DNA from: Tepidisphaeraceae bacterium
GTDB taxonomy: Bacteria > Planctomycetota > Phycisphaerae > Tepidisphaerales > Tepidisphaeraceae
Direction: 5' to 3'
Assembly (NCBI GenBank): GCA_035998445.1
Contig: DASYHQ010000038.1
Location: 1 to 36,870 of the forward strand
DNA: 36,870 bases
The notes below the pieces were generated by a model. That model saw nothing but the letters and a program-made list of their open reading frames with translations. It was not told the DNA's origin and made no database searches. Shown one piece after another: positions 1-32,719 of this stretch (position 1 is its first letter; every line of letters begins with the position of its first letter). Both the position numbers and the translations under genes were made by a program.

Positions 1-3000
1 GCCGCGATCCTCGGCGAGCGCCCGCACTTGCTTCATGAACTCGTAGCCGTCTCGCGTCGGGAGGCCGATGTCGCTCACCACCACGTCCGGCCGCTCGGCC
101 TGAAGTACCTCCATCCCCTCGGCTGCGGTCGCGGCGGTAAAGACGACGGCGTTGCAATCCTCCAACAGCCGCCTCACCAGCGTCCGCGCGTCCGGCTCGT
201 CGTCCACGACCAGCACCTTCACGCCCGCGATGTCGGCGCACATGTCGGTCAGCAATGCCTGCGCTTCCCCCCCGGCCTTGGGATGGCGGCGATCGGGTTC
301 GGGTTGCGACTCGGGGTGGATCACGGCCAACGGCAGCGAGACGATGAAGGTCGCGCCCTGTCCCTCGCCTGCGCTCTTGGCGCGGACCGAGCCGCCATGC
401 AGTTCGACGAGTTGCTTGGCGATGCTGAGGCCGAGGCCCAGCCCGCCGTGCCGCCGGGTGGTGGAGGCGTCGGCCTGCCGGAAGCGGTCGAACACGTGCG
501 GTAGGAACTCTGGTGCGATTCCCTCGCCCGTGTCGGCAACGCTCACCTCGAGGTGCGAGTTCACGCGTTCGAACACCACCTGCACGCGCCCGCCCCTCGG
601 CGTGAACTTCACTGCGTTGGTCAACAGGTTCCAGAAGACCTGTTGCAGCCGGGCCGGGTCGCCGTTGACTGGCCCGGCCAGCGGGTCGAGGACCGCCTGA
701 ACCCGAATCCCCTTGGCGTCTGCCGCTGGCGTGGCCGACTCCACGGCCGCGCGGAGGATCGGTTCCAGCGAGAGGCGCTGAACGTCGAGCCGCACCTTGC
801 CGCTGATGATGCGGCTCATGTCCAGCAGGTCTTCGATGATCTGCGCCTGCGCCCGCGCGTTCCGCTCGATCACGCCGATGCCCTGCGCCATATCCTCGGT
901 CGATGCCGACGGCCGCTTGACGATCTGCGACCACCCGAGGATCGCGTTGAGCGGCGTGCGAAGCTCGTGGCTGAGCGTGGCCAGAAACTCATCCTTCATC
1001 CGACCGGCCCGCTCTGCCTCGGTGCGCGCCGCCCGTTCAGCTTCGAGCAACCGGTCGCGGTCCGCCTCGGCCCGTTTGCGGTCGGTGATGTCCACGCTGG
1101 CCGCGATGACCCCGCTCGGTTGACCGTCGCGGTCCTTCATCAGCGAGACGCTGTTGCTGACCCAGACCTCCGACCCGTCCGGCCGGACGTACCGCTTCTC
1201 GATCACGAACGGTTTCCCGTCGCCGACGGCCGTCTGCAACAGTCCGAGGTTCCGAGACAGGTCGTCCGGGTGCGTGATGTCCTGCATGCGCAGGTCGAGC
1301 AGTTCCGCGTGGGAGCGGCCGACAATCTGGGCGTACCGGTCGTTGGCGAGTACGAAGCGGCCCGTCAGGTCCGCCTGCGCGATCCCCGCCTCGGTTTGCT
1401 CGAACACCGCGCGCAGCCGCTGCTCGCTCTCCCGCAGCGCCGCCTCGTCCCTGAGGGCGTCGGTCACGTCCCGAATTTCGATCACGGTGGAGACCGGTCG
1501 GCCGTCCCGGAAGATCGGGCTGGCCGCGACGAGGACCGGGAACGCGCTGCCATCCTTACGGAAGAATAAGTCCTCGTGCGCCCGCACGTCGAAGTTCTCC
1601 GGCAGCGCCCGGTCAATGGGGCACTCGTGCATCGGGTAGGGTCGCCCGTCCGGGTAGTGATGATGTACGAGGTCGTGCAGCGGCCTCGATCCGATCTTCT
1701 CGGCCGAGTACCCGGTCATGTCGAGCCACGACTTGTTCGCGTAGGTGCAGTACCCACGCTCGTTCATCATCGCCAAGCCTTGCGTCGAGTTCTCGGCGAT
1801 GGTGCGGACGAGTTCCTCGCTCGAACGCAGGGCACCCTGTGCCCGCCTCTGCGCGGTCACGTCGTGCAGGGTCAGCACGGCCAGCACGACCTGCCCGTGG
1901 TCGTCCAGCACCGGACTTCCGCTATAGCTGATCACGCGCTGAAGTTCAGCGTCCAGCCGTCGAACGCCGACTTCGTAACCTAAGAAAGTCTCCCCGCGTA
2001 GCACCCGTGACATCGGCCACTCCCTGAGCGGCACGACCCGGCCATCGTCTGAGGTGAGTTCCAAGACCTCCGGGAAGTCATTCAAGTGCTTGCGAACTTC
2101 ATCTAGGCTGGCGTAGCCGTGCATTTCCAACGCGGCCGCGTTCCATTCGGGGAGGTTTCCCGCCGCGTCTGCGACCACGACCCCATCGGCCATACATCCG
2201 ACCACGGCCTGCCATCGGGAAAGGGCCGCTTCGGTGGCCTCGGTCGCGTGCCGTAGTGCCGCCTCCGCTCGCTTCCGCTCCGTCAGATCACGCAGTTGTC
2301 CCCGGAACAGTTGGACGCCGTCGACGCTGACCGGGCTGATCGTCAACTCGACCGGGAACTCGTCGCCGCTCTTTCGTATTGCTGTCAGTTCGATTCGCCT
2401 GCCGAGGATCGGCCCCTCGCCTCTTGCGAGGTAGCGGGCGAGTCCATTGCGGTGTGCCTCGCGAAGCGCGGGCGGGATGATCAACCTAGCCATCTCCTGC
2501 CCTACGGCCTCGGCGTGCGAGTACCCGAATGTTTGCTCTGCGGCGGCGTTCCACGCCGTGACTCGCCCCGCGTGATCCATGCCGACGATGCAGTCGAGGG
2601 ACGCTTCGAACATCGCCGCGAAACGGGCCTCGCTCTGTCGAACCGCCGCCTCTGCTTCCTCACGGGCCGCAGACTCTCGCGACTGTGCAACGAGCGCCCG
2701 CCGAAGTTCCAGTTGGCTCATCACCTGTCGTGCCAGTGCTCGAAGCGCTTCCTGTTGGCTATCGGTCAGGTCACGCGGCCGGTGGTCCAGCACGCATAGC
2801 GTGCCCAGCGCGTGCCCATCCCCTGTTTTGAGTAACGCCCCCGCGTAAAAGCGCAGGTACGGCTCTCCGACAACGAGCGGGTTGTTCTTGAACCGCTCGT
2901 CCTCCTGTGTGTCGGGGACGATGAGCAATTCGCGTTCGAGGATGGCATGGGCGCAGATGGACGCGTCGAGCGGCGTCTCGCGCACCCCGAGGCCCAACTC

Positions 3001-3198
3001 GCTCTTGAACCACTGCCGGTCCCGGTCGATGAAGTTGATCACCGCGACCGGCGTCTGGCAGACGTGGGCGACCAACCGCACTAGGTCGTCAAAGGCCTGC
3101 TCGCCCGGCGTGTCGAGGATGCCGTATCCGCGCAACGCCTCGAGGCGGTGCTCGTCAGTGCATGCGGGGGTGAAGGGGTGTTCGGAAGGTAAGGACAG
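1..3198 (-). CDS. Hybrid sensor histidine kinase (GAF, four PAS, HisKA, HATPase, receiver), C-terminus cut by window edge
   Basis: Cytoplasmic-type hybrid sensor kinase that should autophosphorylate on His and pass phosphate to its own receiver. From the N-terminus the translation shows a GAF domain (about residues 20-155, starting RLEALRGYGILDT), four PAS/PAC units (about 180-305, 330-445, 455-575, 590-705), a HisKA H-box (FLATLSHELRTPLN, near 735), an HATPase domain with N-box (NLLTNAVKFTP), G1 (DTGEGIAPEF) and G2 (GGLGLGLSIAK), then a receiver starting VLVVDDEPDARTLV with phosphoacceptor Asp in VVVSDIGLPTRDG. The receiver runs off base 1. No transmembrane segment is seen, so input is probably through GAF/PAS. 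The frame is closed upstream by a TAG at 3220-3222, and no ATG, GTG or TTG lies between it and the GAF domain. I place the start at a CTG (3198), but a start-region indel is equally possible. The ligand is unknown. Confidence 0.92.
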   Translation of the reverse strand, partial: MSLPSEHPFTPACTDEHRLEALRGYGILDTPGEQAFDDLVRLVAHVCQTPVAVINFIDRDRQWFKSELGLGVRETPLDASICAHAILERELLIVPDTQEDERFKNNPLVVGEPYLRFYAGALLKTGDGHALGTLCVLDHRPRDLTDSQQEALRALARQVMSQLELRRALVAQSRESAAREEAEAAVRQSEARFAAMFEASLDCIVGMDHAGRVTAWNAAAEQTFGYSHAEAVGQEMARLIIPPALREAHRNGLARYLARGEGPILGRRIELTAIRKSGDEFPVELTISPVSVDGVQLFRGQLRDLTERKRAEAALRHATEATEAALSRWQAVVGCMADGVVVADAAGNLPEWNAAALEMHGYASLDEVRKHLNDFPEVLELTSDDGRVVPLREWPMSRVLRGETFLGYEVGVRRLDAELQRVISYSGSPVLDDHGQVVLAVLTLHDVTAQRRAQGALRSSEELVRTIAENSTQGLAMMNERGYCTYANKSWLDMTGYSAEKIGSRPLHDLVHHHYPDGRPYPMHECPIDRALPENFDVRAHEDLFFRKDGSAFPVLVAASPIFRDGRPVSTVIEIRDVTDALRDEAALRESEQRLRAVFEQTEAGIAQADLTGRFVLANDRYAQIVGRSHAELLDLRMQDITHPDDLSRNLGLLQTAVGDGKPFVIEKRYVRPDGSEVWVSNSVSLMKDRDGQPSGVIAASVDITDRKRAEADRDRLLEAERAARTEAERAGRMKDEFLATLSHELRTPLNAILGWSQIVKRPSASTEDMAQGIGVIERNARAQAQIIEDLLDMSRIISGKVRLDVQRLSLEPILRAAVESATPAADAKGIRVQAVLDPLAGPVNGDPARLQQVFWNLLTNAVKFTPRGGRVQVVFERVNSHLEVSVADTGEGIAPEFLPHVFDRFRQADASTTRRHGGLGLGLSIAKQLVELHGGSVRAKSAGEGQGATFIVSLPLAVIHPESQPEPDRRHPKAGGEAQALLTDMCADIAGVKVLVVDDEPDARTLVRRLLEDCNAVVFTAATAAEGMEVLQAERPDVVVSDIGLPTRDGYEFMKQVRALAEDRG

Positions 3199-9295: not shown

Positions 9296-12200
9296 ATGAA
9301 TCACCCTCTGACAGCGGCCGCACTCGTCGCGATGATCCTGTCCACCGGTCTGTTCCCTCTTGCGCCGCACGCGCGCGCCGCCGAGCAGGTCGCCGACCAC
9401 GACTTCTCAGACGCGCCCGTCGGCGGAAAGCCCGAAGGATGGAGCGTTCCGAACTTCATGACGCCGGGGAAGTCGCAGGTCGTCGGCGGCGAGAACCCGT
9501 TCGTGCGCTTCCGCAACGGCGAGGTGACCCAGGTGGTCGCCATGGAGCGCACCGTCGCGCTGCCGCCCGGCACAACGTTCGTCATCCTCTCGCTGAAGAT
9601 GCGCACCGAAGGCGTGCGGCTCGGCAGCGAGGGCTGGCACGAGCCGCGCGTCTCGATGCGCTGGTTGAACGATGCCGGCGAGCAGGTGGGCGGCTACCCG
9701 CAGATGCCCAACCAACGCGCCGATGGCGGTTGGACGACCAAGACGGTCGAGATGGACGTGCCCGCCGGCGCGACAAAACTGAACCTCCAGCCGGGCCTGT
9801 GGCTGTGCGCCGGCACGCTCGACATCGACGATTTATCCGTGCAGGCCTTCCCCAGCCGGGCCGACCAACTGCGCAGCAAGATCAAGGCCTACTTGCCCGA
9901 CTTCGCGATCGGCTCATTCGATACCATCGGTGCATCGGGCGGTCCGGAGGGCTGGGAGGTTGGCGCGGGCATCACGACGGTGTCGGCCGCGGATTCGCTG
10001 CAACAGCGCGTCGACCAGCACCCGGAGAACAACCGGCCGGGCAAGCCCGGGGCGCCAACGGGCCGCGTGCTGGCCATCTCGAGCGAGAAGGGGGACAACG
10101 ATCTGCGCGCCCGCGCGCAGTTCGCGGTCGACCCCGCGTGGCAGGAGGTGCGCGTCGAGCTGGAGATGAAGGCAGAGCGCCTGATCCTCGGCCCGGAGGT
10201 GCGCTCACCGTCGCCCACGAAGTGGCGCCAGGCGGGGGCGCTCGTGACGTTCCTCGATGCCAGCGGCAAGGAGATGACCGACGGCGCCGGGCTGTGGGTG
10301 ATGCACCATCGCGACTGGACCGAGTTCGCCGTCGAGGCGGGCGTGCCGGCGGGCGCGATCGTCTGCCGGATCGAGCTCGGCACCTGGTGGGCGGGCGGGC
10401 GCATCTACTACGACGACGTGCGCGTGACCCCGATCACCGAGGCGCGCGTCGCCGACGCGGCGCTGTCGCCCGAGCACGCGGCTCTGTTCGCGCAGAAGCC
10501 GGTGAAGGAGATCACCCCGCAGCGGGCGGAGATCGACCTGAACGGGCTGTGGATGTTCGTGCCCGCCGCCGGCGCGACGCTGAAGGAGCCCAAGGGGTTC
10601 GGGTACATCAAGGTGCCGGGCGCGTGGAACCGGGATGACGCGATAGCCGCGCGCGGCGTGGGCCGGGGCTGGCTGATGTTCAAGGGAGACGAGGTCGGCC
10701 AGGCGTGGTACGAACGGCCGATCACCGTCCCGGCAAGCTGGAAGGACCGGGCGGTCGTGCTGGACCTGGACCGCGTGAGCACCGATGCCGTCGTCTACTT
10801 GGACGGTCAGGAACTTGGCCAGGTGCAGTGGCCTGCCGGGCAGGTCGACTTGACACCCGCGGTGAAACCGGGGGTCGAGCAGACGCTGCGCGTGCGCGTG
10901 CTGGCGGTGGACGACAAGACGGAAGTCGTCTCGTACATGGGCTACCTGAACGAGCCCAAGGGCAAGGCGCAGCTGGACAACCGCGGCATCATCGGCCGCG
11001 GGTTGAAGCTGATCGGCCGACCCAAGGGTGGGCACGTCGCCGACGTCTACGTGCGCCCGAGCACGCGGCAGCAGAAGGTCGACGTCGACGTGGAACTGGC
11101 CGGCGTCACCAGGGCCGGCGAGGTGAAAATCGTCGCGGAGATGCACGACGAGCAGGGCAAGGTCGAGAAGACCTTCAACGCGACCGCGAGCGTGACGGCC
11201 GAGGCTGAACAGAAGGTGACCGTGTCGTGGCCGTGGACCGACGCGCGGCTGTGGGACTACCGCCAGCCCAACCGGTATACGATGCGCCTTTTCGTCGCGG
11301 GCGACGCGCTGACCGACGCGGTCGTTCAGCCCTTCGGCTTCCGCGAGTTCTGGATCGACGGGCGCGACTTCTACCTGAACGGCACGCCTTACAACTTGCG
11401 GCCGAACAACTTGCAGTACGGCGCCAAGCCGTCCGGCATCGTCAAGGAGGGGTACAACTTCGCCGAGCTGTGGCCCGACGACCGCGGTCGCCGCGGCACC
11501 GATCTGGAGTACGACGACGCCTGCATCACGGAGGCCGACCGCATCGGCTTCCCGATCGCCGCCAAGCTCGTCCACCTGGGCGACTGGGCGTCGGACATCA
11601 AAAAGTGGGAGAAGCCCGAGGCCCGGGCCGACTACGAGCGCCTGATGGCCCACTCGGTCCGCCGGTGGCGCAACAGCCCGGGCGTGGTGATGTGGGCGCA
11701 CAGCGCCAACGTCTTCCAGTGGACCGGTGACGGTGAGCCGCGCCTGCTCGGGCAGCGCAACGTCAGTAACGCGCAGGAGCTGGAGCGCCGGCGCGACAAC
11801 GTGTGGGAAGCGATCGCGATGGCCAAGACCGTCGACCCCATCCGCCCGATCTACGCCCACCACGGCGCCGACGCCGGCGAGGTCTACACGAGCAACTTCT
11901 ACCTGAACTTCATCCCGCTGCAGGAGCGCGAGGAGTGGATGGCGCACTGGGCGCGGCACGGCCAGATGCCGTTCATCGCAATCGAGTTCGGTACGCCGCT
12001 CTACGCGAGCCTGATGCGCGACGAGGACGGCTACACCGCCCAGGGCCATTCCGAACCGAGCCTGACCGAGTGGATGGCCGTCTACCAGGGCCACGACGCC
12101 TACCGCGACGAGGCCGACGACTACCAAAAGATCTTCACTGAGCGGTACAAGGGCAGCGCCAACCACCGCAATGAGTATCAGCCGCACATCCGTCACGGGC

Positions 12201-14588
12201 GGTACGAGCACATTCTGACGCACAACAAGTCGTTCCGTGCGTTCCAGAACCTGTTCTACCGCAACACGTGGCGCAGCTGGCGCACGATGGGCGTGAGCGG
12301 CATGGGCATCCCCTGGCACCAGACCGACCCGGCGATGTTCCCCGAGCTCCCCGCCAACAACGGCGACACGCTCGCCTGGATCGCCGGGCCCGCCGGCGAC
12401 ACCGGTGCCGACACGCCCACCGATCCCGCGGTGCCGAACTTCACGCGCAAGGACCATCACTTCGCGCCCGGGCAGGCCGTTCAGAAGCATGTCGTGCTGA
12501 TCAACGATGCCCGCGTCTCGCAGAAGTACAGCGCGACGTGGAGCGTGAAGATTGGTGATGCGGCCGTCACCGATGGCACCAAAGACGGCGAGCTGGCCGT
12601 CGGCCAGAAGCTGTTCCTGCCCGTCGACTTCACGGTGCCGCAGATCGCTGGCGACCGCGCCGACGGCACGATCGCGCTCACGAGCAAGATCGGCGAACAC
12701 GCGCACACCGATGCCTTCCCGTTCACCGTCTTCGCGCCGCCCGCCAAGGCGCAGGGTCGGCTGGCGGTGTGGGACCCGGCCGGTGACACAACGAAGCTGC
12801 TCGCGTCGCTCGGGTACGCGGTGACGCCCTGGACCGACGGCCAACCGACCGAGGCGGTGGCGGTCATCGGGTGCAAGGCGCTCTCCGACCGCCACGTGCC
12901 GCCGGGCGACCCTGCGACATTTGTGAAGGCGGGCGGGCGGTTGATCGTCTTCGGGCAGGAGAACGACTGGACGCGCCTGTCGCTGCAACTGCGCACGGCC
13001 CCGCACGTCAGCCGACGCGCCTTCGCGGTGACCGCGGACCACCCCGTGCTGACCGGCCTGTCGAACGACAACCTGCGCGACTGGGCCGGCGAGGGGACGC
13101 TGGTGGCGGCCTACCCGCACCGGCCGGGGGCCGAGTGGCTCAGCGCCTACGGCTGGCGCTGGGGCAACCGCGGCAGCGTGAGCAGCACGCCGATCGAGAA
13201 GCCGCACCGCAGCAGCTTCCGGCCGATCATCGAGAGCGAGTTCGACCTCGCCTACTCGCCGCTGATGGAGATGGACTTCGGCAAGGGCCGCGTCACGCTC
13301 TGCAGGCTGGACCTCGAAGGACGCGCCAACGGTGACGATCCCGCCGCGATGAAGCTGGCGGCGCAGATGATGAAGCACGTGGTGAGCGGGCCCATTGCAC
13401 CGAAGGTGGACGAAATCGTCTACGTCGGTGGCGAGCGGGGCGCGAAGGTGCTGGACGATCTGGGCATCGCGTACCGCAAGGCCGACGCCATCGATTCAGC
13501 CGCGAAGCTGGTGGTGGTCGGTGAAGGCGCCGACGCCGCCAACCTGACCGATTACGTGAAGCAGGGGGGCAAGGCGCTCGTGCTGGCCCGCGATGCCGGT
13601 GCCGCGCTCGCGGGTCTCACGATTGAGACGAAGGCCAACTTTCAGGGCTCCCACAACGTGCCCACTTGGCCCGAGGCAGCCGGGCTGAGTCCGTCCGACT
13701 TGCACTGGAAGACCAAGTTTGATGGCCGGGGTGCTGACCGGTGGCGACGGCGTCGAGATCGCCGCCGACGGCATGCTCGGTCGCTTGATCGGCGCTGACG
13801 GTGGCGTGGCGATCTTCGCGCAGGTTGACCCGACCTACCTGCCCGCCGACGCCAAGCATTACTTCCGCTTCAGCCGCTGGCGGCAGACGCGGGCGCTGTC
13901 GCAGTTGCTAGCCAACTTGGGCGCCACGTTCAGGCAGGACGCCGCCTTCATGGCGCTGCTGCAGCGCCCCGAGCAGGGGTACATGCTCGCCGGCGAGTGG
14001 GACGCGCGCAAGACGGTCTCGCTAAAGGAAAGCCTGTACCGCCAGTGGCACTCGGTTCAACCGGTCAGCGACGGCGCCAGGCAGTTGATCGCCCGCGGCG
14101 CCGAATCGACCGAGGGCTGGCAGAAGGTCTCGGTCCCCGCCTACCTCGAAAGCTACGGCCACGAGTGGAAGTGGACCGACGGCGAGACGCTGTTCCGCAA
14201 GGTGATCGACGTCCCCGCCTACATGGCCGGGCGCGACATGTTCCTGTCGGTGGGCCGGGTCGACGAGACGGAGGAGACGTTCGTGAACGGCATTAGCATT
14301 GGCTCAAGCAAGAGCTGGCTCTTCCCGCGCGGCCGCCGGGTGCCGGGCGCGCTGATCAAGCCGGGCAAGAACGTGATCGTCGTCCGCAACTGGGACGAAT
14401 GCATCCACGGCGGCATGTGTGGCGCCGCCAACGCCATCTTCCTGCGCAGCGCCGCGCCGGACGCCGGCTTTTACCACCCGGACTACCTGTCCGATCAGGT
14501 CGATGAGTCCACGACCGAGGAGGGCTGGAAGGCCAGCTACGAACGCTGGTTCATCGCCGACAACCCGTACCGTTACACGCGTTGGTAA
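9296..14588 (+). pseudogene. Giant secreted glycoside hydrolase family 2-type protein, frameshifted near 13722
   Basis: Residues 1-28 form a signal peptide (ATG 9296, CGAGG ribosome-binding site). Two jelly-roll-like N-terminal domains (about 30-380) precede a GH2 sugar-binding domain (from about 411, IDLNGLWMFVPA), an Ig-like domain, and a TIM barrel from about 680 (FREFWIDGRDFYLNGTPYNL). A likely nucleophile is Glu897 in MPFIAIEFGTP. At the usual acid/base place the sequence reads VVMWAHSANVFQW, with Asn-Val (about 805-806) instead of Asn-Glu, so canonical retaining activity is doubtful. The first frame ends 13798 in an Arg-rich tail. The next frame continues convincingly from 13722 (VLTGGDGVEIAADGM) through another jelly-roll-like domain (MFLSVGRVDETEETFVNG) to 14588. 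Removing one G at GATGGCC joins them into about 1763 residues. Expected outside the cytoplasm, acting on a plant or algal glycan; substrate unknown. Confidence 0.88.
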
Positions 14589-14671: not shown

Positions 14672-15820
14672 TCAACGGCGCCCCTTGCGGTAGGCGGCGG
14701 GCGTGGTGCCGGTGAGTTGGCGGAAGACGTGGCCCATGCGCTCGCGGCTCATGAAGCCGCTCGCCTTGGCGACGGCGGGGAGCGGGAGGTCGGTCTCCGC
14801 CAGCAGCTCGCGGGCGCGGGCGACGTGGACCCGCTGGACCTCGTCGTGGGGCGTACGGCCCAACGCCCGTCGGAAGCGCCGTTCCAGCGCGCGGCGGCTG
14901 ACGGCGGTGGCGCGGGCCACGTCCTGAACGTCGATCGGCTCGCTGGCGTGCGCCGCGATGTACCGCACGGCGGCGGCGACGTCGGGGTCGTCCACCGCCA
15001 GCACGTCGCTGCTCCGCCGGACCACGACGCCGATCGGGTCGATCAGGATGCGCTGCCGCGGGGCGGCCTCCCCCCGCATCAGTCGGTCGAGCAGGGCGGC
15101 GGCCTCGAACCCGATGCGGCGCGTGCCCAGCGCCACGCTGCTGAGTGGCACCGGCGCCAGCTCGCAGCGGATGTCGTCGTTGTCCACGCCGACGACGGCC
15201 ACGTCCTCCGGAACCGCCAGCCCGTGTGCTTTGCACTGGTCGATGACCTGTTCGCCCCAGTCGTCGTTGCACGCCAGCACGCCGAGCGGCTTGGGGAGCG
15301 ACGCGAGCCATCGGCCCATGTCCGCCGGCACCGGGTTGCCCCGCGCCCCAGAGCCGGCGGTGGTGATCGCCGACGGGTAACAGTGCCACGACCCACCCGC
15401 GGCTTCCACAGCGCGCATGAAACCGAGGCCGCGCTCCATAAAGCTGCCGCCGCCCCAGGGCAACATCACGTAGGCGAAATGGCGAAAGCCGCGCTCGATC
15501 AGCGAATGGGCCACGAGCGCGCCGACCCGCGCGTCGTGGTTGGTCACCACCGGCCACGCCGGCTCGAGCGGGTAGTTCGAAACGTTGACCCAAGGCACGC
15601 GCCCCGTCGACATCGCGGAGGCGACGGCGCCATCGACCACGTGCCCGATCGCGCCGGCGGCACCTTCGCTGACCAGATCCGGCACAGGTTGCGGCGCGCG
15701 GAACGAGATCAACCGCAGGTCCCAGTCCGGCACCGTCCGGCCGTACTCGGTGATCCCGTGGAAGATCTGACGCGTCAGTGACAACTCGGTGTTCAGAATG
15801 AGAAAGATGGATTTCATCAT
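14672..15820 (-). CDS. AraC-family sugar regulator with LacI/periplasmic-binding sensor domain (XylR type)
   Basis: About 382 residues. The N-terminal two-thirds is a LacI-like ligand-binding fold without a LacI HTH (MKSIFLILNTELSLTRQIFH, VLACNDDWGEQVIDQCKAHG, VAVVGVDNDDIRCELAPVPL). The last 100 residues are a double AraC HTH (IDVQDVARATAVSRRALERR then RFRRALGRTPHDEVQRVHVA, and VAKASGFMSRERMGHVFRQL). This architecture is that of E. coli XylR and many planctomycete regulators that activate sugar-use genes on binding a sugar. Start placed at ATG 15820 (MMKSIF); an ATG at 15832 is also possible. It is convergent with the GH2-type gene and divergent from the PEP-CTERM/enolase pair, as expected for a local regulator. 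The ligand is unknown. Confidence 0.92.
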   Translation of the reverse strand: MMKSIFLILNTELSLTRQIFHGITEYGRTVPDWDLRLISFRAPQPVPDLVSEGAAGAIGHVVDGAVASAMSTGRVPWVNVSNYPLEPAWPVVTNHDARVGALVAHSLIERGFRHFAYVMLPWGGGSFMERGLGFMRAVEAAGGSWHCYPSAITTAGSGARGNPVPADMGRWLASLPKPLGVLACNDDWGEQVIDQCKAHGLAVPEDVAVVGVDNDDIRCELAPVPLSSVALGTRRIGFEAAALLDRLMRGEAAPRQRILIDPIGVVVRRSSDVLAVDDPDVAAAVRYIAAHASEPIDVQDVARATAVSRRALERRFRRALGRTPHDEVQRVHVARARELLAETDLPLPAVAKASGFMSRERMGHVFRQLTGTTPAAYRKGRR

Positions 15821-15966
15821 CAACCATGACATCCTAATTAGTGCCGCAAAACATCTCAAATTAACCGCAATACATCCTGGCTGACGTCGATTTCGGAGGT
15901 ATGTTCCCCCTGAGTCATTTCTGACTGCCAACGGAAAAATACCTTCATTAAGGCTTGGAGAAACAC
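15821..15966. promoter_or_regulatory. Divergent promoter region between regulator and PEP-CTERM gene
   Basis: About 145 AT-richer bases separate the two divergent starts, so both promoters must lie here. It contains CAATACATC at 15868-15876, a string also found at 8521-8529 upstream of the other PEP-CTERM gene, with further similarity after it (TGGCTGAC...TCGAT against AGGCAGAC...TCGAT). It could be a shared operator. No exact promoter boxes are claimed. Confidence 0.45.
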
Positions 15967-16817: not shown

Positions 16818-18049
16818 TTGACGTTGGTGGACGATCATCGCGAGGTGGGCGGGCAGATCCCGATCGTGCGGGAACTGGACGCGAGTAGTGCGGACGCCGC
16901 TACGGACCCGCACCGGCCGGCCATCTTCGCCGACGCCCCTGGGCGCGTGGAAGGCGTGGAACTGTACCGCGTCGACTGCACGAAGCCGCGGCACTTTAGC
17001 TTCGGCACGTGGCACAACCGCCAGCACCTGGTGCTACGCCTGCGGTGCGGCGCGCACAGCGGGTGGGGGGAGATGATCGTCGGCAAGAACGACCCCGGTT
17101 TCGACATCGCGTCGAAGTCGGCTGAGTTCGGGCAGCTGGTCGGGCTGGCGTTGCCGCAGGCGATCGCCCACGTGCGGGCCGCCGTCGGCCAGGGGGGCGC
17201 CAACGAGACGGAGATCGCGGAGATGGCGCTGATCGACCTGGCGGGCCGAACGATGGACCGGCCGGCGGTCGAACTGCTGCGCCTGAACGGGACCGATCCG
17301 GTGCCGGGGTTGTATTGCGTCCTGGACGACCGCCCGGACCGCGTGCGCGACGAGGCGCGCACCGCGCTTGCGCAGGGATTAACGACGCACTTGAAGGTGA
17401 AGCTGTTCGGAGAGCGGGAAAAGGACCTCGGCGTGGTGCGGGCCGCACGCGACATGTACGGCCCGGCCGCGTACGTCGTGGGGGACGCGAACTGCGGGTA
17501 TCGCCGGCCATCGATCGACGCGCTGGCCGTCGACCTGCTCGCGCTGCACGCGGCGGGCCTGAGCGGGTGCGAGGACCCGGCCAGCCTGTCTAACGAGGAT
17601 TGGGTGGCGTTGCAGGCGAAGGTGGGCGCGCTCGGCCTCGTTCCCGACGCGCCGGTGAAGAACGCCGCGCGCGCGCTCCGCACGCTGCTGCCGGGCATGG
17701 GCCGCGTTTACAATATCCACCCCGCCAACACGGGGTCGATCTTCGACGCCGTCGCGCTGGGGCGCAAGGTGCAATCGTTCGGCGCGAAGCTGATGATCGG
17801 CGACGACAGCCTCCTTGGTCCCGCCTGCCCGCGTGGGAGCAACTGGCCATCGGCCTCGGCGCCGACTGGGTCGAGGCGATCGAGAAACCGCAGGAGTGCG
17901 ACGCGTTCCTCAACTGCCTCACTGGCCAGGCCACCGGGCGCACGGCGGACGGGCGCTTCGCGATGAACGCGCGGCGGCCCGGCTTCGGGCTGACGGTCGA
18001 CGCCAGCGCCCTCGCGGCGGCAGCGGCGCAAAAGCACGTTCTGGCGTGA
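16818..18049 (+). pseudogene. Enolase-superfamily (mandelate racemase/muconate lactonizing) sugar-acid dehydratase, frameshifted near 17829
   Basis: Start TTG 16818 follows AAGGAG by seven bases. The capping domain includes FGTWHNRQHLVLRLRCGAHS. The barrel shows a catalytic Lys-x-Lys (THLKVKLFG, about 190), metal-site candidates VVGDANCGY (about 220) and LSGCEDPAS (about 250), then RVYNIHPANTGSIFDA and LMIGDDSLLGPA near the C-terminus. Most members of this layout dehydrate acid sugars or racemise acids; I cannot choose the substrate, though the context favours a hexonate or deoxy-hexonate. After GPACP the frame turns into an Arg/Ser-rich tail ending 17966. The adjacent frame continues properly as AWEQLAIGLGADWVEAIEKP to 18049. 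Adding one C to the CCC at 17828-17830 gives one protein of about 410 residues, so this is either a recent pseudogene or a homopolymer error. Confidence 0.85.
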
Positions 18050-20230: not shown

Positions 20231-23200
20231 ATGCAAGTACGCCGAAATTTCAAGAGCACCAAACTTCATCCGGTCTCGCGGGCGGTTTTTGAAACGTTGG
20301 AGGAGCGTCGGCTCCTGGCGGTCGACCTGCTGGTGGACCTGAACACGAACACCGAGTCGTCGTCGCCCGCTCAATTTGCCCGCGCGGCCGATGGGACGGT
20401 CTACTTCCGAGCCAACGACGGTAGGACCGGAGCCGAACTGTGGCGCACCGACGGCACCGCGGGCGGCACGGCGCTCGTCGCGGACATCGCGCCAGGTTCG
20501 GCCGGTTCGATGAGCACCGATCCGACGAGCAGTAACCCCTTAAACCTCGGCATCCTGGACAACCAGATCTTCTTCGCGGCGCGCAGCGTGGACAGCGACA
20601 CCGAACTTTGGACCAGCGATGGCACCGAGGCCGGCACGCGGCGACTGAAGGACCTGAACGCGGGCCCCGCCAGCAGTTCACCGCGCCTCTTCACGACGGC
20701 CGGCGGGAAGATGTTCTTCGTCGCCAACACCGGCGGCGTCAGTGGCCAACTCTGGCAATCGGACGGGACGGCCGACGGCACGTCGCTCGTCAAGCCGATC
20801 AGCGCCAGCCCGAACGGCGCCGGCATCACGGCGCTCGTGCCGTTCGGCGACCGCGTCGCGTTCGTGGCGTCGGACGCGAACGGCCCCGAACTTTGGGTGA
20901 GCGACGGCACGGACGGCGGCACCTACATCGTTCAGGACATCGCGCCGGCGGGCAGCGCCGCGTTCGTGCAGAACCTGACGGTCGTCGGCGACCAGCTGTA
21001 CTTCACCGCGCGCGATTTCTCCGACCCCGCGCAGTCGCCCTTCGCGCTGTACAGGACGAACGGCGCCGCGGGTAACCTCCAGCGCCTGCACACGTTCGCC
21101 GGCAGCGCCACCTCGCCGTCGGCCATGACGGCGGTCGGGTCGACGCTGTATGTCGCGCAGCCAGGCTATTCGGCGGGAACGACGCTCTTCAAGAGCGACG
21201 GCACCTCGGCGGGCACGGTGGCGCTGCGGGGCTTCTCCTCGCTCGCCTGGCTGACCGCGGCCGGTGATACGCTCTACATGACGGCCAACGGTAGTGCCCT
21301 GGAGGGCGCAGAACTCTGGAAGAGCGACGGCACCGAACAGGGCACGCAGCTCGTGGCGGACGTTGTCGGTGGCGCGGTAGGCAGCAGCCCGAGCAACCTC
21401 ACGGTCGCCGGCGACACCCTCTACTTCACGGCCAACCCGATCGTGTCCGGCAAGGGGCAGACGCTCTACCGCTCCGGCGGCACCGCGGCCACCACGGTGG
21501 CGCTGGGCACGACAGGCGTGGTGGGCAGCAGTTCTGCGGCGCGGGCCCCAAGCCAGCTGCTTGCCGTCGGCGACGGCGTGATGTACGCCGGTTCCGACAA
21601 CGCCACCGGCACGGAACCGTGGCGCACCGACGGCACCGCGGCCGGCACGGCGATCGTGCGCGATATCAATACGATCTCGCTGCCGTCGACGCCGGGCAGC
21701 GCCGTGGTGCTGAACGGCAAGGCAATCTTCGCCGCCGCGGGCCCGCTCGGCCGCGAGCTGTACAGCTCGGACGGCACGACCGCCGGCACGACGCTGTTGA
21801 AGGACATCTTCACGCCCAACACGCTGCCCAACCACTTCGGCGCCATCGGCGGCAGCTCGCCTGCCAGCCTGACGCGCGTCGGCGACGTCGTCTACTTCGC
21901 CGCCGCCAGCATCGAGAAGGGCTACGAGCTCTGGAAGACCGACGGGACGACCGCCGGCACCGTGCTGGTGACGGACATCAACACCAGCGGCAACTCCTCG
22001 CCCGCCAACCTGGTGAACTTCAATGGCACGCTGTACTTCAGCGCCGACGACGGGACCAACGGCATCGAGCTCTGGAAGAGCGACGGCACCGCCGCCGGCA
22101 CGGTGCGCGTGACCGACCTGGCGACCGGCGACGCCTCGGCCGGCCCGACGTCGCTCACCGTCTTCAACAACCAGCTTTACTTCTCCGCCGTCAGCACGCA
22201 GTTCGGGCGCGAGCTGTTCCGCAGCGACGGCACGACCGCCGGCACGGTGATAGTGAAGGACATCAGCGCCAGCGGCAACTCCTCGCCCGCCAGCCTGACC
22301 GTCGTCGGGGGCTTGCTCTACTTCGTCGCGACCGACGGCAGCACGGGCAACGAACTGTGGCGCACCGACGGCACGACCGCCGGCACCGTGATTGCCAAAG
22401 ACCTTAGCGTGGGGTCGGCCAGCGCCAGCCCTGCGCAATTGACGGCGGTCGGTTCGACGCTGTACTTCACCGCCTTCACCTCGGCCACGGGCGTCGAGCT
22501 CTTCAAGAGCGACGGCACCGCCGCGGGCACCGTGCTGGTGAGCGACGTGCGCGCCGGCACCGGCAGCTCGTCGCCGACCGCGTTGTTCATGGTGGCCGGT
22601 CGTCTCTACTTCGGCGCCGACGACGGCGCGAACGGCCGCGAGCTCTGGACGAGCGACGGCACCGGCGCCGGCACGGTGCTCGTGAAGGACATCAACCCCG
22701 GGGCGGGCGCCAGCTCCGCGCCGCAGGGCTTCTTCTCGTTCAACGGCCGCGTGTACTTCGCCGCGACGACGGCGCAGGCCGGCAGCGAACTGTGGGCGAC
22801 CGACGGTACCGCCGCCGGCACCGTGCTCGCGGCCGACATCAACCCGTACCTCTCGACGGCGACGGGGGGGCCGATCGGCAGTTCCCCCTTCCTGATCGCG
22901 ATCGTGAACGGCGCGGCGATCCTGTCGGCCAACGACGGTGACCATGGTGCCGAGCCGATGCGCTTCGCGCCGCCCGCGCTCCCCCCGAACGCCGCGCCCG
23001 TGGCGATCGTGGATGGCCCGATCGGGTTCACCGAATCCAGGACGAGCGGCCCCACGTTCAACGGGTCGGCGTCGTACGACCCCGACGGGACGATCGCCTC
23101 GTACGAGTGGGACCTGAACTACGACGGCAAGACGTTCGCGCCCGACGTGTTCGGCTCGCGGTACACCTTCGCCTTCGTCGATGGCCCGGCCACGTTCACC

Positions 23201-26200
23201 GTGGCGCTGCGCGTCACCGACAACGCCGGCGGCACCGCGATCGTGTCGCGCACGATCACGGTCACGAACACGGCCCCGCTGTTCAGCGCCACGTTCGGCA
23301 ACAACCCATTGGAGGGCCAGAGCACGGCGCTGAACGTAAACCCGTACTACGACGCGGGCTTCGACACCGTCACGAGCTGGACCGTCGACTGGGGCGACGG
23401 CCAGACCGCGACGTTCAACGGCGGCCTGCTGTCGCTGACGCACGCCTACGCCGACAATGGCGCCTACGCGATCACCGGCACCGCCACCGACGAGGACGGC
23501 ACCTACGCGTTCGGCCCCTACAACGTCAACGTGCGCAACGCCGTGCCCACCAATATCGCCACCAACGGCCCCGCGACGATCGACGAGGGGCAGTCGGCAA
23601 CCTTCAACGGCTCGTTCACCGATGCGGGCGTGCTCGACACGCACACGCAGTCGTGGAAGGTGCTGACCGGGTCCGGAACGCTGCTCGCCACCGGCAGCGG
23701 ATCGAGCTTTGAACACACGTTCGCCGATAACGGGTTCTACGTCGTCCAGTACCAGGTCACCGACGACGATGGCGGCGTCAGCTCGATCGCGAGCCGGTCC
23801 ATCACCGTCTGCAACGTCGTCCCTGCGCTTCGGGTCGCGGGCGCGTCGACCACCGATGAGGGGGCGACCTACACCCTTGTCATGTCGGCCAGCGACCCGG
23901 GGCAGGACACGATCGCCTATTGGACGATCGACTGGGGCGACGGCGTGACCGAACGGGTGGATGGCAACCCCTCGACCGTCACCCACGTCTACGCCGAAGG
24001 CGCCGCCGCACGGCGCGTGCGCGCGACGGCGACCGACGAGGACGGCACGTGGCAGGCGAGCGGCGCTTACGGCGGTACGGACGGCGTCCCCGATAGTGCG
24101 TTTGCCGCAAACGGTAGTGCCGTCACCGGCATTCCCGGCTCGACGTACAACCAGAACTTCCGGTCGCTGTTGGGTGGAAAGGTCATCACGCGCAGCGATG
24201 GCGGGGCGCTCGTCCTGTACACCTACTACGACCAGCCGGCGTCCGTGTCCCACGCGATCGTCGGCGCCTATCGGCCGGACGGGTCGCTCGACACGTCCTT
24301 CGGCGTCAACGGACTTGCCAGGCACGCCTTCGGTGCCCCGAGCGCGTTCTTCGACGCGCGTGACCTGGCGATCGACGCCAACGGGAAGATCGTCATCTCG
24401 ATCTACGCCGGCAACAACACCGGCGGCGTCGCTCGGTTGAACCCGAATGGGACCGTCGACACGACCTTCGGGCAGGGTACCGGTTACGTCAGCACGGGGT
24501 CGATCTACAGCTCCACGGCCGTCCACATCCTGCCCGACGGGAAGATCCTCTCGCTGCACGCGGCCGCCGGCACGTCGGCGAAGGTGGTGCGGTGGCTGCC
24601 CGATGGCGGCATCGATCCGTCGTTCGGAGACGCGGGGTCGGGGACCGTGCAGATCGTCGACGCGAACGGTTTGGCGGTGGGGCCCGATGGGGCGATCGCG
24701 GTAGTCGGAAAGGCGCTGATCAACATCTCCCTGCCGTACGAACTGGCGTTGGCGCGGTTGACGGCCGATGGCCGCCTGCCCGCGACCAACGCGCTGGTCA
24801 GGGAGGGCGGCTTCCCGTACAGCGACGTGTATAACGCCGTCGCCATTCAGCCCGACGGCAAGATCGTCGCCGTGGGGGCGGTCGGCACCGCGGGGTCGAA
24901 CCCGACCACGGCCTACGACGGGATCGTCATCCGCTACAACGCCGACGGCACGCGCGACACCGCGTTCAACGGCTCAGGACAGCGGCAGATTCGCTTCAAC
25001 GCCGCGACCGCCAACGCGTTGCACGACGTGACGATTCTGCCCGACGGAAAGATCCTGGTGACCGGCCACAACACCGGTGACTTCGCGGCCGCGCGCATCA
25101 ACGCTAACGGTTCGCTCGACGACTCGTTCGGCGTCGGTGGCGTGCTCGCTACCGGCTTCGGATTATCGGCCAACGAAGTGGCCACCGGGCTGGCGGTACG
25201 ACCCGATGGGCGGTTCTACCTGACCGGCATTCGAACCAGCAGCGTCGCGGAACAGCTGCCCGACCGCATCCTGCTCGCCCGCTTCCGCCCCGCCGACCGG
25301 CTGCAGGTCAACAACGTCGCGCCGAGCGTGTCGCTCAGCGACGATGGCTCCTCCACCGCGACCGAGGGCGCCGCCATCACGCTGACCGCCTCGGCGACCG
25401 ACCCGTCGACCGCGGACGCCGCAGCCGGGTTCAACTACGCCTGGACCGTCACGAAGGACGGCGCCGCGTACGCCAGCGGAAACACCGCAAGCGTCGCCTT
25501 CACGCCAAACGACAACGGGACCTATGTCGTCTCGACCACCGCGACCGATCGCGATGGCGGCACCTCGAGCGCGGCGACGCGCACGATCGTCGTCGACAAC
25601 GTGGCGCCGATTGCGGCGCTGGCCAACGGGCCCGCGAACGGCACGAGCGTCGAGGGAACGGCCGTCTCCTTCTCGGCCAGCGCAACCGATCCCTCGCCGA
25701 CCGATACGGCGGCGGGCTTCGGCTACAGCTGGTCGGTGACGAAGGACGGCGCGGCATTCGGATCCGGCACCGGCGCCAACGTCGCCTTCACACCGGACGA
25801 CAACGGCGCCTACCTCGTCTCGCTGACCGCTGCCGACAAGGACGGTGCCACGGGGTCGACGTCGGTAACCGTCACCGTGACCAACGCCACGCCGACGCTC
25901 GACGTGAGCGCGTCGCCGACCAACGTGGTCGAAGGTCAGGCCGTCACCTACACCGCCGACGGCAGCGACGCCGGCGCCGCCGACCGGGCCACGCTCACCT
26001 ACGCGTGGAACGTGACGAAGAGCGGCAACCCGTTCCGCAGCGCCAGCGGCCCGTCGGCGTCGTTCACGCCGGACGACAACGGCACGTATGCCGTGTCGGT
26101 CACGACGACCGACAAGGATGGCGCGACGTCGGCTGCCGTCGCGCGCACGCTCACCGTCGCCAACCGCGCGCCGACCGCCACGTTCGCCGCGATCGGCGAC

Positions 26201-26749
26201 GCGGCACAGGAAGGTAGTCCGACGAGCTTTACGTTCTCCAATGCCGACGACGCCGCCGCCGACCTGGCTGCGGGCCTTCGCTACAGCTTCGACTTCAACA
26301 ACGACGGCGACTTCACCGATGCCGGCGACGTGCTGAACGCCACCAGCCCGACCGCCACCTTCGCGTTCCGCGACAACGGTTCCTACACCGTGCGGGGGCG
26401 CGTTACCGATCAGGACGGCGGCCTGACGAACTACTCGACGGTCGTCGCGGTCGTCAACGTGGGCCCGAGCGTCGCGGTCATAGCCAGCACGACCAACGGG
26501 CGGCGCAACAAGGCGATCGACTTCACCTTCCGCGCCACCGACCCCTCGGCCGCCGACCAGGCGGGCACGTTCAAGTATCACGTGGACTGGGACGGCAACG
26601 GGTCGGTGGACCAGGTCATCACCGGCACGTCGAAGGTGAGCGCGTCGCGCACGTACAAGTCGGGCGGGTCGTACAACGTCCGCGTGTATGCCGTGGATAA
26701 GGACGGCGGCATCGGCCCGATCACGCAGCTGCTGATCCGCATCGCCTGA
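20231..26749 (+). CDS. Giant surface protein: ELWxxDGT repeats, PKD domains, delta-60 repeats
   Basis: 2172 residues, intact. ATG 20231 follows GAGAGGG. The N-terminus has the planctomycete motif FETLEERRLLAVDLL in place of a classical signal. Residues about 40-915 carry about 17 copies of a 45-60 residue unit ending in forms of ELW-K/R-T/S-DGT-x-AGT (for example GIELWKSDGTAAGT, GRELWTSDGTGAGT). PKD-like domains follow at about 918-1280 (ASYDPDGTIASYEWDLNYDG; TSWTVDWGDGQ). Delta-60-type repeats occupy about 1285-1690 (PDGSLDTSFGVNGLARHAFG; ANGSLDDSFGVGG), and four further PKD/Ig-like domains fill 1695 to the end, including FNNDGDFTDAGDV. The product is expected outside the cell as an adhesin or matrix protein. 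Each repeat type is known alone; the combination is unusual. No enzyme motif is present. Confidence 0.93.
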   Translation: MQVRRNFKSTKLHPVSRAVFETLEERRLLAVDLLVDLNTNTESSSPAQFARAADGTVYFRANDGRTGAELWRTDGTAGGTALVADIAPGSAGSMSTDPTSSNPLNLGILDNQIFFAARSVDSDTELWTSDGTEAGTRRLKDLNAGPASSSPRLFTTAGGKMFFVANTGGVSGQLWQSDGTADGTSLVKPISASPNGAGITALVPFGDRVAFVASDANGPELWVSDGTDGGTYIVQDIAPAGSAAFVQNLTVVGDQLYFTARDFSDPAQSPFALYRTNGAAGNLQRLHTFAGSATSPSAMTAVGSTLYVAQPGYSAGTTLFKSDGTSAGTVALRGFSSLAWLTAAGDTLYMTANGSALEGAELWKSDGTEQGTQLVADVVGGAVGSSPSNLTVAGDTLYFTANPIVSGKGQTLYRSGGTAATTVALGTTGVVGSSSAARAPSQLLAVGDGVMYAGSDNATGTEPWRTDGTAAGTAIVRDINTISLPSTPGSAVVLNGKAIFAAAGPLGRELYSSDGTTAGTTLLKDIFTPNTLPNHFGAIGGSSPASLTRVGDVVYFAAASIEKGYELWKTDGTTAGTVLVTDINTSGNSSPANLVNFNGTLYFSADDGTNGIELWKSDGTAAGTVRVTDLATGDASAGPTSLTVFNNQLYFSAVSTQFGRELFRSDGTTAGTVIVKDISASGNSSPASLTVVGGLLYFVATDGSTGNELWRTDGTTAGTVIAKDLSVGSASASPAQLTAVGSTLYFTAFTSATGVELFKSDGTAAGTVLVSDVRAGTGSSSPTALFMVAGRLYFGADDGANGRELWTSDGTGAGTVLVKDINPGAGASSAPQGFFSFNGRVYFAATTAQAGSELWATDGTAAGTVLAADINPYLSTATGGPIGSSPFLIAIVNGAAILSANDGDHGAEPMRFAPPALPPNAAPVAIVDGPIGFTESRTSGPTFNGSASYDPDGTIASYEWDLNYDGKTFAPDVFGSRYTFAFVDGPATFTVALRVTDNAGGTAIVSRTITVTNTAPLFSATFGNNPLEGQSTALNVNPYYDAGFDTVTSWTVDWGDGQTATFNGGLLSLTHAYADNGAYAITGTATDEDGTYAFGPYNVNVRNAVPTNIATNGPATIDEGQSATFNGSFTDAGVLDTHTQSWKVLTGSGTLLATGSGSSFEHTFADNGFYVVQYQVTDDDGGVSSIASRSITVCNVVPALRVAGASTTDEGATYTLVMSASDPGQDTIAYWTIDWGDGVTERVDGNPSTVTHVYAEGAAARRVRATATDEDGTWQASGAYGGTDGVPDSAFAANGSAVTGIPGSTYNQNFRSLLGGKVITRSDGGALVLYTYYDQPASVSHAIVGAYRPDGSLDTSFGVNGLARHAFGAPSAFFDARDLAIDANGKIVISIYAGNNTGGVARLNPNGTVDTTFGQGTGYVSTGSIYSSTAVHILPDGKILSLHAAAGTSAKVVRWLPDGGIDPSFGDAGSGTVQIVDANGLAVGPDGAIAVVGKALINISLPYELALARLTADGRLPATNALVREGGFPYSDVYNAVAIQPDGKIVAVGAVGTAGSNPTTAYDGIVIRYNADGTRDTAFNGSGQRQIRFNAATANALHDVTILPDGKILVTGHNTGDFAAARINANGSLDDSFGVGGVLATGFGLSANEVATGLAVRPDGRFYLTGIRTSSVAEQLPDRILLARFRPADRLQVNNVAPSVSLSDDGSSTATEGAAITLTASATDPSTADAAAGFNYAWTVTKDGAAYASGNTASVAFTPNDNGTYVVSTTATDRDGGTSSAATRTIVVDNVAPIAALANGPANGTSVEGTAVSFSASATDPSPTDTAAGFGYSWSVTKDGAAFGSGTGANVAFTPDDNGAYLVSLTAADKDGATGSTSVTVTVTNATPTLDVSASPTNVVEGQAVTYTADGSDAGAADRATLTYAWNVTKSGNPFRSASGPSASFTPDDNGTYAVSVTTTDKDGATSAAVARTLTVANRAPTATFAAIGDAAQEGSPTSFTFSNADDAAADLAAGLRYSFDFNNDGDFTDAGDVLNATSPTATFAFRDNGSYTVRGRVTDQDGGLTNYSTVVAVVNVGPSVAVIASTTNGRRNKAIDFTFRATDPSAADQAGTFKYHVDWDGNGSVDQVITGTSKVSASRTYKSGGSYNVRVYAVDKDGGIGPITQLLIRIA

Positions 26750-29099: not shown

Positions 29100-29203
29100 C
29101 GGGTGCTCCTTGACACCCATTGTGGCGGGCGGGTGTAATTAGCCTGCAGCTCTCAAAAAGGGGGAGCTCGTTCCCTGAATATTTATCACAGAGACGGCAC
29201 CCA

Positions 29204-32200: not shown

Positions 32201-32719
32201 TCGCTCGAGGGCGTGACGCTGGCGGCCGGTGACAACGCGATCCGCTTGGTCGCCAGCACGTCGGCCGGCGGGGCGAACGTCGACACGCTGACGATCATCA
32301 ACGGCGGCGGCAGCGACCCGGTCACGCCGCCGCCGGTCCAGCCGTCGGTGACGGTGCAGGCGGAGTCGGCGACGATGGTCGGCGTGACGCGGCAGACGAC
32401 CAACGGCGGCTACACGGGGACCGGTTACGCCGACTTCGGCGGCGCCGGCTCGTACGTCCAGTTCACCGCCAGCCGCACGACCGCCGGGGCGACGACGCTG
32501 AAGCTGCGCTACGCCAACGGCGGCACGACCGCCCGCCCGGTCAGCATCGCGGTCAACGGCGCCGTCGTGCAGAGCAGCGTCGCCATGAACGGCACCGGCG
32601 GCTGGACGAACTGGCAGGAGCTGACGCTGACGCTGGACCTGCTGGCCGGCAGCAACGTGATCCGCCTGACGAGCACAACTGCCAACGGCATCAACCTCGA
32701 CGCCGTCACGGTCGGGTAG
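29204..32719 (+). CDS. Large surface protein: beta-helix, PKD domains and three tandem carbohydrate-binding modules
   Basis: 1171 residues from ATG 29204. The N-terminus YAIEALEPRQLLTTFLVSNT carries the planctomycete LEPRxLL motif, then NTADAGEGSLRQAILNANAD, an opening common to secreted parallel beta-helix proteins. Beta-helix turns follow (about 100-330: NFIGTDLSGTAAVGN, NVISGNREGVGF, NYIGTDHTGTTAVPNSTGVF). A region with NDVNGDGVIDLATESN and DANENGALDAGE looks like an SdrD-B/dockerin-type calcium-binding repeat. Two PKD domains lie at about 559-755. Three CBM6/35-type modules (about 764-888, 907-1034, 1047-1171) share VTLQAEDA, GTGYADYAG and LRYANGG motifs and are joined by Pro-rich linkers, one a run of ten prolines. 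It probably binds polysaccharide at the surface; catalytic residues are not identified. Confidence 0.92.
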   Translation: MYNSTRTTYAIEALEPRQLLTTFLVSNTADAGEGSLRQAILNANADANADNIHFAIASPGPWSIAPLTNLPTITAPVVLDATTQPGYAGKPVVEIKGPDLAWNSVGFHVWDGSDHSLIRGLVINGFQYGIITRGISVRVEGNFIGTDLSGTAAVGNGIGVLAMGRNAIIGGSVAAARNVISGNREGVGFSSGSGEGTVIRGNYIGTDHTGTTAVPNSTGVFIFGRSTIVGGTTENASDWNVIAGNSGSGIYAHWDQNARVQYNRIGINAEGRVLPNGGPAIELNAGTYTIAHNEIGFGASRGISVQGDARALIYENRVDRNGQLPTWAEIDLGNQGSNFNDAGDLDSGPNDLLNAPTVTSIEGTPSSPIVRGAYHGLANTSITIDLYLRGSGSSRAHLGRTTIATDANGNGSFAFNSDPTWIAAGGRIFATASIIDALGNGGVTSEMSEAGLPIGGGFISGFIGNDVNGDGVIDLATESNLVPDRTAYIDANENGALDAGERRFVTEVDGFWFNFLQPGRYVIRQVVPAGMRQTRPSSLDPAAQDAIVIDLINGQRARADFATTAAPLTADAGGPYTVSERATVGLNGSGHSDSGSIVKYEWDLDYDGSSFQVDATGARPAFSAAALDGPAATCTVALRVTDSAGATAMSAARVTVLNVAPTATFSINGPVTAGAPVTASFTKPVDVSADLQSLRHSFDFNNDGDFTDDGDVSGSTSATASFTFATAGTFNVRGRIADKDGGYTDYTTAVTVNPATPPPTTSVVLQAEDAVLSGGAAKASQHAGFMGTGYADYAGSGSAAQWAVTRTAAGAATLSVRYANGGTADRPLTVYVDNVAVGTLACAPTGSWTTWSTVSLAATLAAGTSTIRLVASTSAGGANVDALTITSGSDPVPPPPPPPPPPTDLASVTLQAEDALLSNGTGRSTQHAGFTGSGYADYAGNGSAAQFTVSRTAAGAATLQLRYANGGAGSRPLTVYVNGVAVGTIACAPTGGWATWASTSLEGVTLAAGDNAIRLVASTSAGGANVDTLTIINGGGSDPVTPPPVQPSVTVQAESATMVGVTRQTTNGGYTGTGYADFGGAGSYVQFTASRTTAGATTLKLRYANGGTTARPVSIAVNGAVVQSSVAMNGTGGWTNWQELTLTLDLLAGSNVIRLTSTTANGINLDAVTVG
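31494..32716 (+). repeat. Three tandem CBM-encoding repeats
   Basis: Three DNA units of about 370-385 bases (31494-31866, 31923-32306, 32344-32716) encode related modules. Units 1 and 2 are closest (VALRYANGG/LQLRYANGG, CAPTG-S/G-W, LVASTSAGGANVD); unit 3 has diverged. The pattern indicates duplication within the gene, and similar GC-rich units raise the chance of assembly collapse or expansion here. Confidence 0.8.

Follow-up and report, generated by a model that had tools for sequence, protein, structure and literature searches.

The window, that is, the whole stretch of 36,870 nucleotides that was analysed, contains a GH2-like gene read from the forward strand and interrupted by a frameshift, and a regulatory gene that faces it from the opposite strand:

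9296-13798, forward strand: open reading frame of the GH2-like protein, 1500 aa in its present form
13743-14588, forward strand: C-terminal remainder of the GH2-like protein, in another frame beyond the frameshift, recognised by comparison with a paralog
14672-15931, reverse strand: AraC-type regulator with a periplasmic-binding-protein-like sensor domain (Pfam PF13377 and PF12833), tail to tail with the GH2-like gene

The GH2-like gene, its paralogs and its neighbours

The start of the 9296-13798 frame was judged by eye to be signal-peptide-like, and the protein is probably secreted. The frame common to the family is abandoned by the window ORF at about 13715-13740, and the last ~281 codons follow in another frame that closes at 14588. 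Of the five members of the family in the window's genome, one is the window gene, another lies on C45, and three lie on C13 in a span of about 78 kb. The C45 paralog (68% identity) is uninterrupted, with a 1831-codon open frame from stop to stop, and its C-terminal part ends in NPYRYTRW, the same ending that the window shows in the other frame. The DNA identity of 13416-14587 to this paralog is 76%, and the break near 13720 amounts to a net offset of two bases against it. Since the C45 paralog runs straight through, a protein of ~1760 aa appears to be natural in this family; thus, the 1760 residues reported by an earlier sequence-only reading hold as the natural length and not as one open frame at this locus, where 1500 aa and a frameshift are found instead. 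The window copy is split by this frameshift, real or from assembly, and the dN/dS of 0.15 for the downstream piece, window against C45 paralog, suggests either a recent break or an error of assembly.

Homologues of the AraC-type regulator adjoin two of the four paralogs (L039 and L041), and the regulator is perhaps dedicated to the GH2-like gene, as far as gene order can tell. The paralog at L040:2632-6444 adjoins GH29 and GH95 fucosidase-type genes, another adjoins melibiase-type and epimerase genes, and another a GH42-type gene; such glycosidase-type neighbours point to glycan use and to no single substrate. Among 96 stretches surveyed with a crude ORF caller, no widely recurring carbohydrate-related neighbour was found; there are neighbour clusters of 8-15 loci, with examples that by eye may be of sensor-kinase, DnaJ/DnaK and other types.

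Further genes were observed in the window. An enolase-superfamily protein with the MR/MLE C-terminal domain, possibly of sugar-acid metabolism, is encoded near the GH2-like gene at 16818-17966 (forward strand), followed on the same strand by a protein of 2172 residues that contains DUF5122 beta-propeller repeats and eight PKD stretches (20231-26749) and by one of 1199 residues that has CBM6/CBM35 stretches and a PKD domain and shows weak beta-helix matches (29120-32719). At the other end, the window edge cuts a hybrid histidine kinase (1-3135, reverse strand) that comprises GAF, a receiver domain and four PAS stretches.

Domain architecture and fold

Three regions were delimited in the GH2-like protein (q, residue numbering of the window protein):

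10505-11365, forward strand: GH2 N-terminal sugar-binding and Ig-like domains, q404-690 (Pfam on the segment, PF00703 with E 5.5e-11 and PF02837 with E 1e-06; AF2 model)
11366-12400, forward strand: TIM-barrel domain, about q691-1035 (PF02836, AF2 model, GH2 structure matches)
12431-13714, forward strand: C-terminal region, q1046-1473, containing E1301 (AF2 pLDDT 89.9; Foldseek)

When the full ORF is compared with Pfam, PF00703 lies above its cut-off (42.3 bits, cut-off 23), and PF02837 (26.8, cut-off 28) and PF02836 (17.4, cut-off 21) both lie below; on the segment, PF02837 rises above its cut-off with 29.2 bits and PF02836 stays below 21 with 19.2. The latter domain is reached at E <= 0.001 in 50 of 58 family members. 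No Pfam domain was found in the N-terminal ~400 residues nor in the C-terminal fragment of the window protein, the two ends at which the sequence-only reading had placed putative jelly rolls. The AF2 model of residues 404-1085 (682 aa), obtained with the barrel alignment A2 (the window barrel and 57 relatives), has pLDDT 87.5 and pTM 0.90. Its best VIA match is 6b6l (Z 25.9, 456 aligned, rmsd 4.3), and all Foldseek and VIA matches listed are GH2-type enzymes (50/50 among the VIA matches listed), so the GH2-like barrel that had been proposed from the letters is confirmed by the model. The jelly-roll, Ig-like and TIM-barrel arrangement of GH2 is present in the window protein at fold level, and at that level, as modelled, the protein belongs to GH2.

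The C-terminal region comprises a beta-rich part and then an alpha/beta part, which may be GATase1/ThuA-like according to its model. The best Foldseek match of the region is the GH2 structure 8u01 (E 5.3e-08), with weaker ones to GH42, to the ThuA-like 1t0b and to others; 8u01, a GH2 TIM-barrel protein of Phocaeicola plebeius, is also the best solved sequence match of the window protein. Among curated names, the nearest are the beta-galactosidase/beta-glucuronidase models, with the cut-off reached by none: against the NCBIfam equivalogs for LacZ, GUS, GalA, GalB and exo-beta-1,4-galactosidase, the window protein scores at best 85.2 bits, the cut-off being 1500, and four other members likewise pass none of the listed models.

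The solved GH2 beta-glucuronidases and beta-galactosidases (6b6l, 5uj6/6d8g, 6sd0, LacZ, GUS) have the same domain order, in which a jelly roll at the N-terminus precedes the Ig-like domain and the TIM barrel, and the same nucleophile Glu on beta-7. Unlike them, the window family has no Glu after strand 4, and it possesses a conserved Q876-E877 loop and a longer stretch between beta-7 and beta-8.

The strand-4 motif and the clade without its glutamate

An Asn-Glu pair after strand 4, whose Glu is the acid/base, is a hallmark of clan GH-A and is general in GH2. This pair is absent from the end of beta-4 in the window family, where the following motif stands:

11690-11713, forward strand: beta-4 motif M-W-A-H-S-A-N-V (q799-806), with no acid/base Glu; ordinary GH2 proteins have W-x-x-x-N-E there

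N805 is encoded by 11708-11710, and the stretch MWAHSAN (residues 799-805) occupies 11690-11710, just where the sequence-only reading had located it. That reading had also held the acid/base Glu to be missing, and neither Glu nor Asp was found at the position.

Relatives were collected broadly. Apart from ordinary GH2 proteins, a search of 101 genomes yielded a compact group of full-length relatives, and phylum samples were drawn from the window's phylum (392 genomes), around a Verrucomicrobia genome (337) and around an Armatimonadaceae genome (251), with divergent members fetched on purpose and added. A contig scan with the single window protein gave no match; with an alignment, it gave 284 relatives, of which 80 were kept. 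No relative was met in viral contigs by the method applied to them, nor in plasmids at E 1e-20. The resulting 239 distinct rows, in which sequences identical over the motif region were merged and near-identical ones kept apart, include 232 that cover the motif and 7 that do not; all came from family-type queries, so that the collection is biased towards relatives of the window.

For the main count, the rows were sorted by their match to profile columns 421-600, which lie behind the motif, the motif itself being unused. Glu occurs at W+4, W+5 or W+6 in none of the 201 rows that match the family profile there, so that a different Glu at the acid/base position, sought by sequence against the earlier claim, did not appear; W+5 is Asn in 188 of these rows and another residue in 13, and Asp is found at W+6 in one. 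Among the 31 rows with no such match, Glu stands at W+5 in 30, and the only exception, L008, is a family member cut off by the locus end. The 30/30 of an earlier count is circular, as its "ordinary" rows had been defined by Glu itself. Sorting by score at a border of 160 bits, fixed beforehand, places Glu in 19/19 rows below and in 4/116 above (at 169-231 bits) in the first set, and in 21/21 below and 9/211 above in the wide set; another border, of 236 bits, was chosen after seeing the result and applies to the first tree and the W1007 count.

The register of the motif varies between methods. The phmmer alignment is ungapped, with the ordinary Glu opposite N805 and its Asn opposite A804; comparisons of the family profile with PDB GH2 chains are likewise ungapped where the motif is covered and pair N805 with the Glu that ends WGYMNE in 5uj6, and the profile-profile comparison with 12 ordinary GH2 sequences gives the same pairing. 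Many profile matches to ordinary GH2 stop at the acid/base motif. The closest ordinary (Asn-Glu) sister found to the Asn clade, L272-L274 from the Armatimonadaceae phylum sample, carries the ordinary motif WSVANE, shares with the window family the FGFREFWIEG signature and the N-terminal half, and has a distant match to its C-terminal domain; the profile-profile comparison with this sister introduces one gap, which pairs Asn with N805 and Glu with V806. Hence the description of the site as Asn-Val in place of Asn-Glu agrees with the sister comparison and disagrees with the ungapped alignments. As judged from these alignments, the absence of the Glu holds in either register, whether N805 is the replaced Glu or the old Asn shifted by one.

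The division is also seen in trees built without the motif columns. In that of the N-terminal half (153 rows; 222 sequences thinned at 65% identity and grouped by residue), the 24 rows with Glu and the 129 others are split by one branch with SH-aLRT 98, and the earlier tree of 117 rows, grouped by profile score, has the same split with SH-aLRT 95, both trees being quick searches with no bootstrap; the 153-row tree is unrooted, and many branches are long. The missing acid/base Glu is, on the sequences sampled, a property of the whole clade. Because the Asn-Glu pair is general in GH2 and clan GH-A, we infer that the strand-4 Glu was lost in the Asn clade, and once.

The 80 titled loci of the family belong to eight named phyla, i.e., Cyanobacteriota (31), Planctomycetota (14), Verrucomicrobiota (13), Bacteroidota (5), Armatimonadota (4), Acidobacteriota (3), Lentisphaerota (3) and Spirochaetota (2), with 5 carrying no phylum, and since many are MAGs, single phylum placements may be wrong. 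This breadth bears on the alternative by which the protein would be an ordinary GH2 enzyme whose normal Glu is hidden by a slip of alignment or sequencing. The frameshift at about 13720 in the window copy and the shifting register of the motif speak for such a slip; however, it would have had to recur in all 201 rows, these 80 loci among them, and is extremely improbable.

The conserved pocket and the possible origin of an acid/base

The rest of the pocket was counted in 200 of the 202 non-Glu rows with H855, Y869, E877 and E897 all aligned, the stripped paralog described below (gap at Y869) being excluded:

11858-11860, forward strand: H855, closing strand beta-5 of the model; His in 192/200
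11894-11902, forward strand: N867-x-Y869 on beta-6; Y869 in 200/200, N867 in 182/200
11921-11926, forward strand: Q876-E877 just after beta-6; Q876 in 195/200, Glu/Asp at 877 in 199/200
11984-11986, forward strand: E897, nucleophile-like Glu on beta-7, within FIAIEFGTP (11972-11998); 199/200
12068-12070, forward strand: E925; 197/200

In the same rows, N805 is conserved in 188/200 and E920 in 151/200, and position 877 is Glu in 190 and Asp in 9; the strand-8 Trp, W1007, occurs in 109/115 rows (236-bit border). In the AF2 layout, strand 4 stops just before N805, H855 ends strand 5, N867 and Y869 lie on strand 6, Q876-E877 and a short helix come next, and E897 lies on strand 7. In the profile-profile comparison with 12 sequences, E897 falls in the column of the ordinary GH2 nucleophile, so the Glu of FIAIEFGTP is kept as the sequence-only reading had it, at the beta-7 place of a GH2 nucleophile. 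Its lone exception, L245, reads PLILEEV, with Glu present there in another alignment, and was dropped as a second nucleophile-less member; the lone exception at E877, L270, reads PLQSREEW, a true Ser, and keeps E897. Such a near-invariant remaining pocket argues against decay of the site, and the barrel dN/dS is 0.29 between the window copy and the C45 paralog.

In the profile-profile comparison, the closest ordinary sister (L272-L274) has a gap at Q876-E877 of the window family, and between the Arg of DPTR and the nucleophile, no column is invariant or nearly so among the 12 ordinary GH2 sequences, the alignment of the second half of the barrel to ordinary GH2 being weak. One ordinary GH2 protein that was compared has Glu-Glu a few residues past its beta-6 Tyr, and E877 may therefore not be wholly new.

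A coupling of N805 with H855 was considered and not retained: it is 3/4 versus 1/107 in the first set, tabulated by hand with kinship ignored, and in the wide set, 4 of the 12 rows lacking N805 and 4 of the 188 with it have lost H855. L251, L253 and L254 are devoid of N805, yet keep H855, E877 and E897, and L098, L252, L255 and L261 are devoid of H855, yet keep N805, E877 and E897, so neither residue is indispensable.

One member, the stripped paralog, has lost N805, H855, Y869, E877 and E897 together. It was fetched three times as one gene (L013, L046 and L128), lies at L046:6867-11624 on the reverse strand in a Phycisphaerales genome, and was left out of the AF2 structure run (as L128). The joint loss suggests that these residues serve a common function in the members that retain them. 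E920 and E925 are still present in it. E925 (197/200) was rejected as the acid, since the stripped paralog retains it and the ordinary sister has a Glu in the same column; its role is probably structural. E920 was rejected at its conservation of 151/200.

A non-catalytic role, in which the barrel would bind a glycan without cleaving it, fits the stripped paralog, which lacks the nucleophile too, and the absence of the canonical acid/base from 201/201 family rows would be in keeping with the same role in the whole clade. However, E897, Y869, Q876 and E877 are near-invariant clade-wide, beyond the expected need of binding alone, and the joint loss of pocket residues in a single lineage suggests a single function elsewhere; binding without cleavage is thus less likely for the clade than for this paralog, and as a general account it appears quite improbable.

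A second source of the acid was considered in the C-terminal domain, where E1301 (13196-13198), in the motif I-E-K-P-H-R, would serve the core family. Glu was found there in 103 of the 105 rows with data (116 examined), and the two exceptions, both Ile, are two lineages that have also lost N805 and H855. After wider sampling, though, the divergent members L249, L257, L269, L271 and L275, with N805, H855, E877 and E897 intact, were found to have Lys, Leu, Arg, Gln and Arg, respectively, so that E1301 cannot be a general solution and was rejected as the relocated acid; even for the core family, this origin is highly improbable.

The enzyme may also be active with no acid/base of its own, by means of a good leaving group, an acid of the substrate itself, or a cofactor acting as base. 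Plant myrosinase (GH1) is a clan GH-A barrel that keeps its nucleophile, has Gln in place of the acid/base Glu and uses ascorbate as cofactor; N805 would then stand at the place of this Gln, although myrosinase differs from the window family in its Gln, its family and source and its ascorbate. The ungapped alignments, which show an amide residue where the Glu would be, and the nucleophile present in 199/200 rows are consistent with such chemistry. Amides acting for a missing carboxylate are described for GH45 subfamily C (Asn) and GH43_24 (Gln) (PMC5829257, PMC7939473) and for GH139 (Asn; PMC12282258), all of other families and other folds than the window clade; however, the amides described there replace the catalytic base, and GH139 and GH45 are characterised there as inverting. 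Moreover, the register may be shifted, which would make N805 the ordinary Asn, and the second conserved carboxylate, E877 (Glu/Asp in 199/200), would be left with no role. Catalysis by this route seems unlikely.

The reading preferred here, at a probability of about 0.47, i.e., somewhat short of even odds, is that of an active retaining glycosidase or transglycosidase with E897 as the nucleophile and E877, with or without H855, as the acid/base. E897, Y869 and W1007 keep the retaining clan GH-A layout, so a glycosyl-enzyme would still be formed on E897, and with the strand-4 Glu absent, the acid/base would have to come from elsewhere. Proton transfer to and from the leaving group may be effected by groups located behind the two strands adjacent to the empty site, where E877, in the loop after beta-6, is the best candidate because it is conserved like the nucleophile, comes after strand 6 and coincides with the gap of the ordinary sister. 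H855, between N805 and E877 in strand order, would be either the acid itself or the partner of E877, and N805 might hold the substrate or H855. Among the options left by the sequence-only reading (another acid, different chemistry, or binding only), another acid is accordingly favoured, on the grounds of the nucleophile-like conservation of E877 and of its place opposite the gap in the closest ordinary sister.

A broader and more tentative proposal, doubtful as yet, is that the N805-H855-E877 set replaces the strand-4 Glu with the strand-7 nucleophile kept, as a rewiring of clan GH-A catalysis with a single origin. In the openly available full-text literature searched, no description of a GH2 clade devoid of the acid/base Glu was recognised. 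A clade that lacks this Glu at a site otherwise nearly unchanged has either a different proton route or the function of a strongly conserved, non-catalytic glycan reader, and the ordinary sister L272-L274 and the stripped paralog L046 are the natural comparisons for both readings. If the rewiring is true, it would represent a new catalytic layout on the GH2 scaffold that merits a family of its own.
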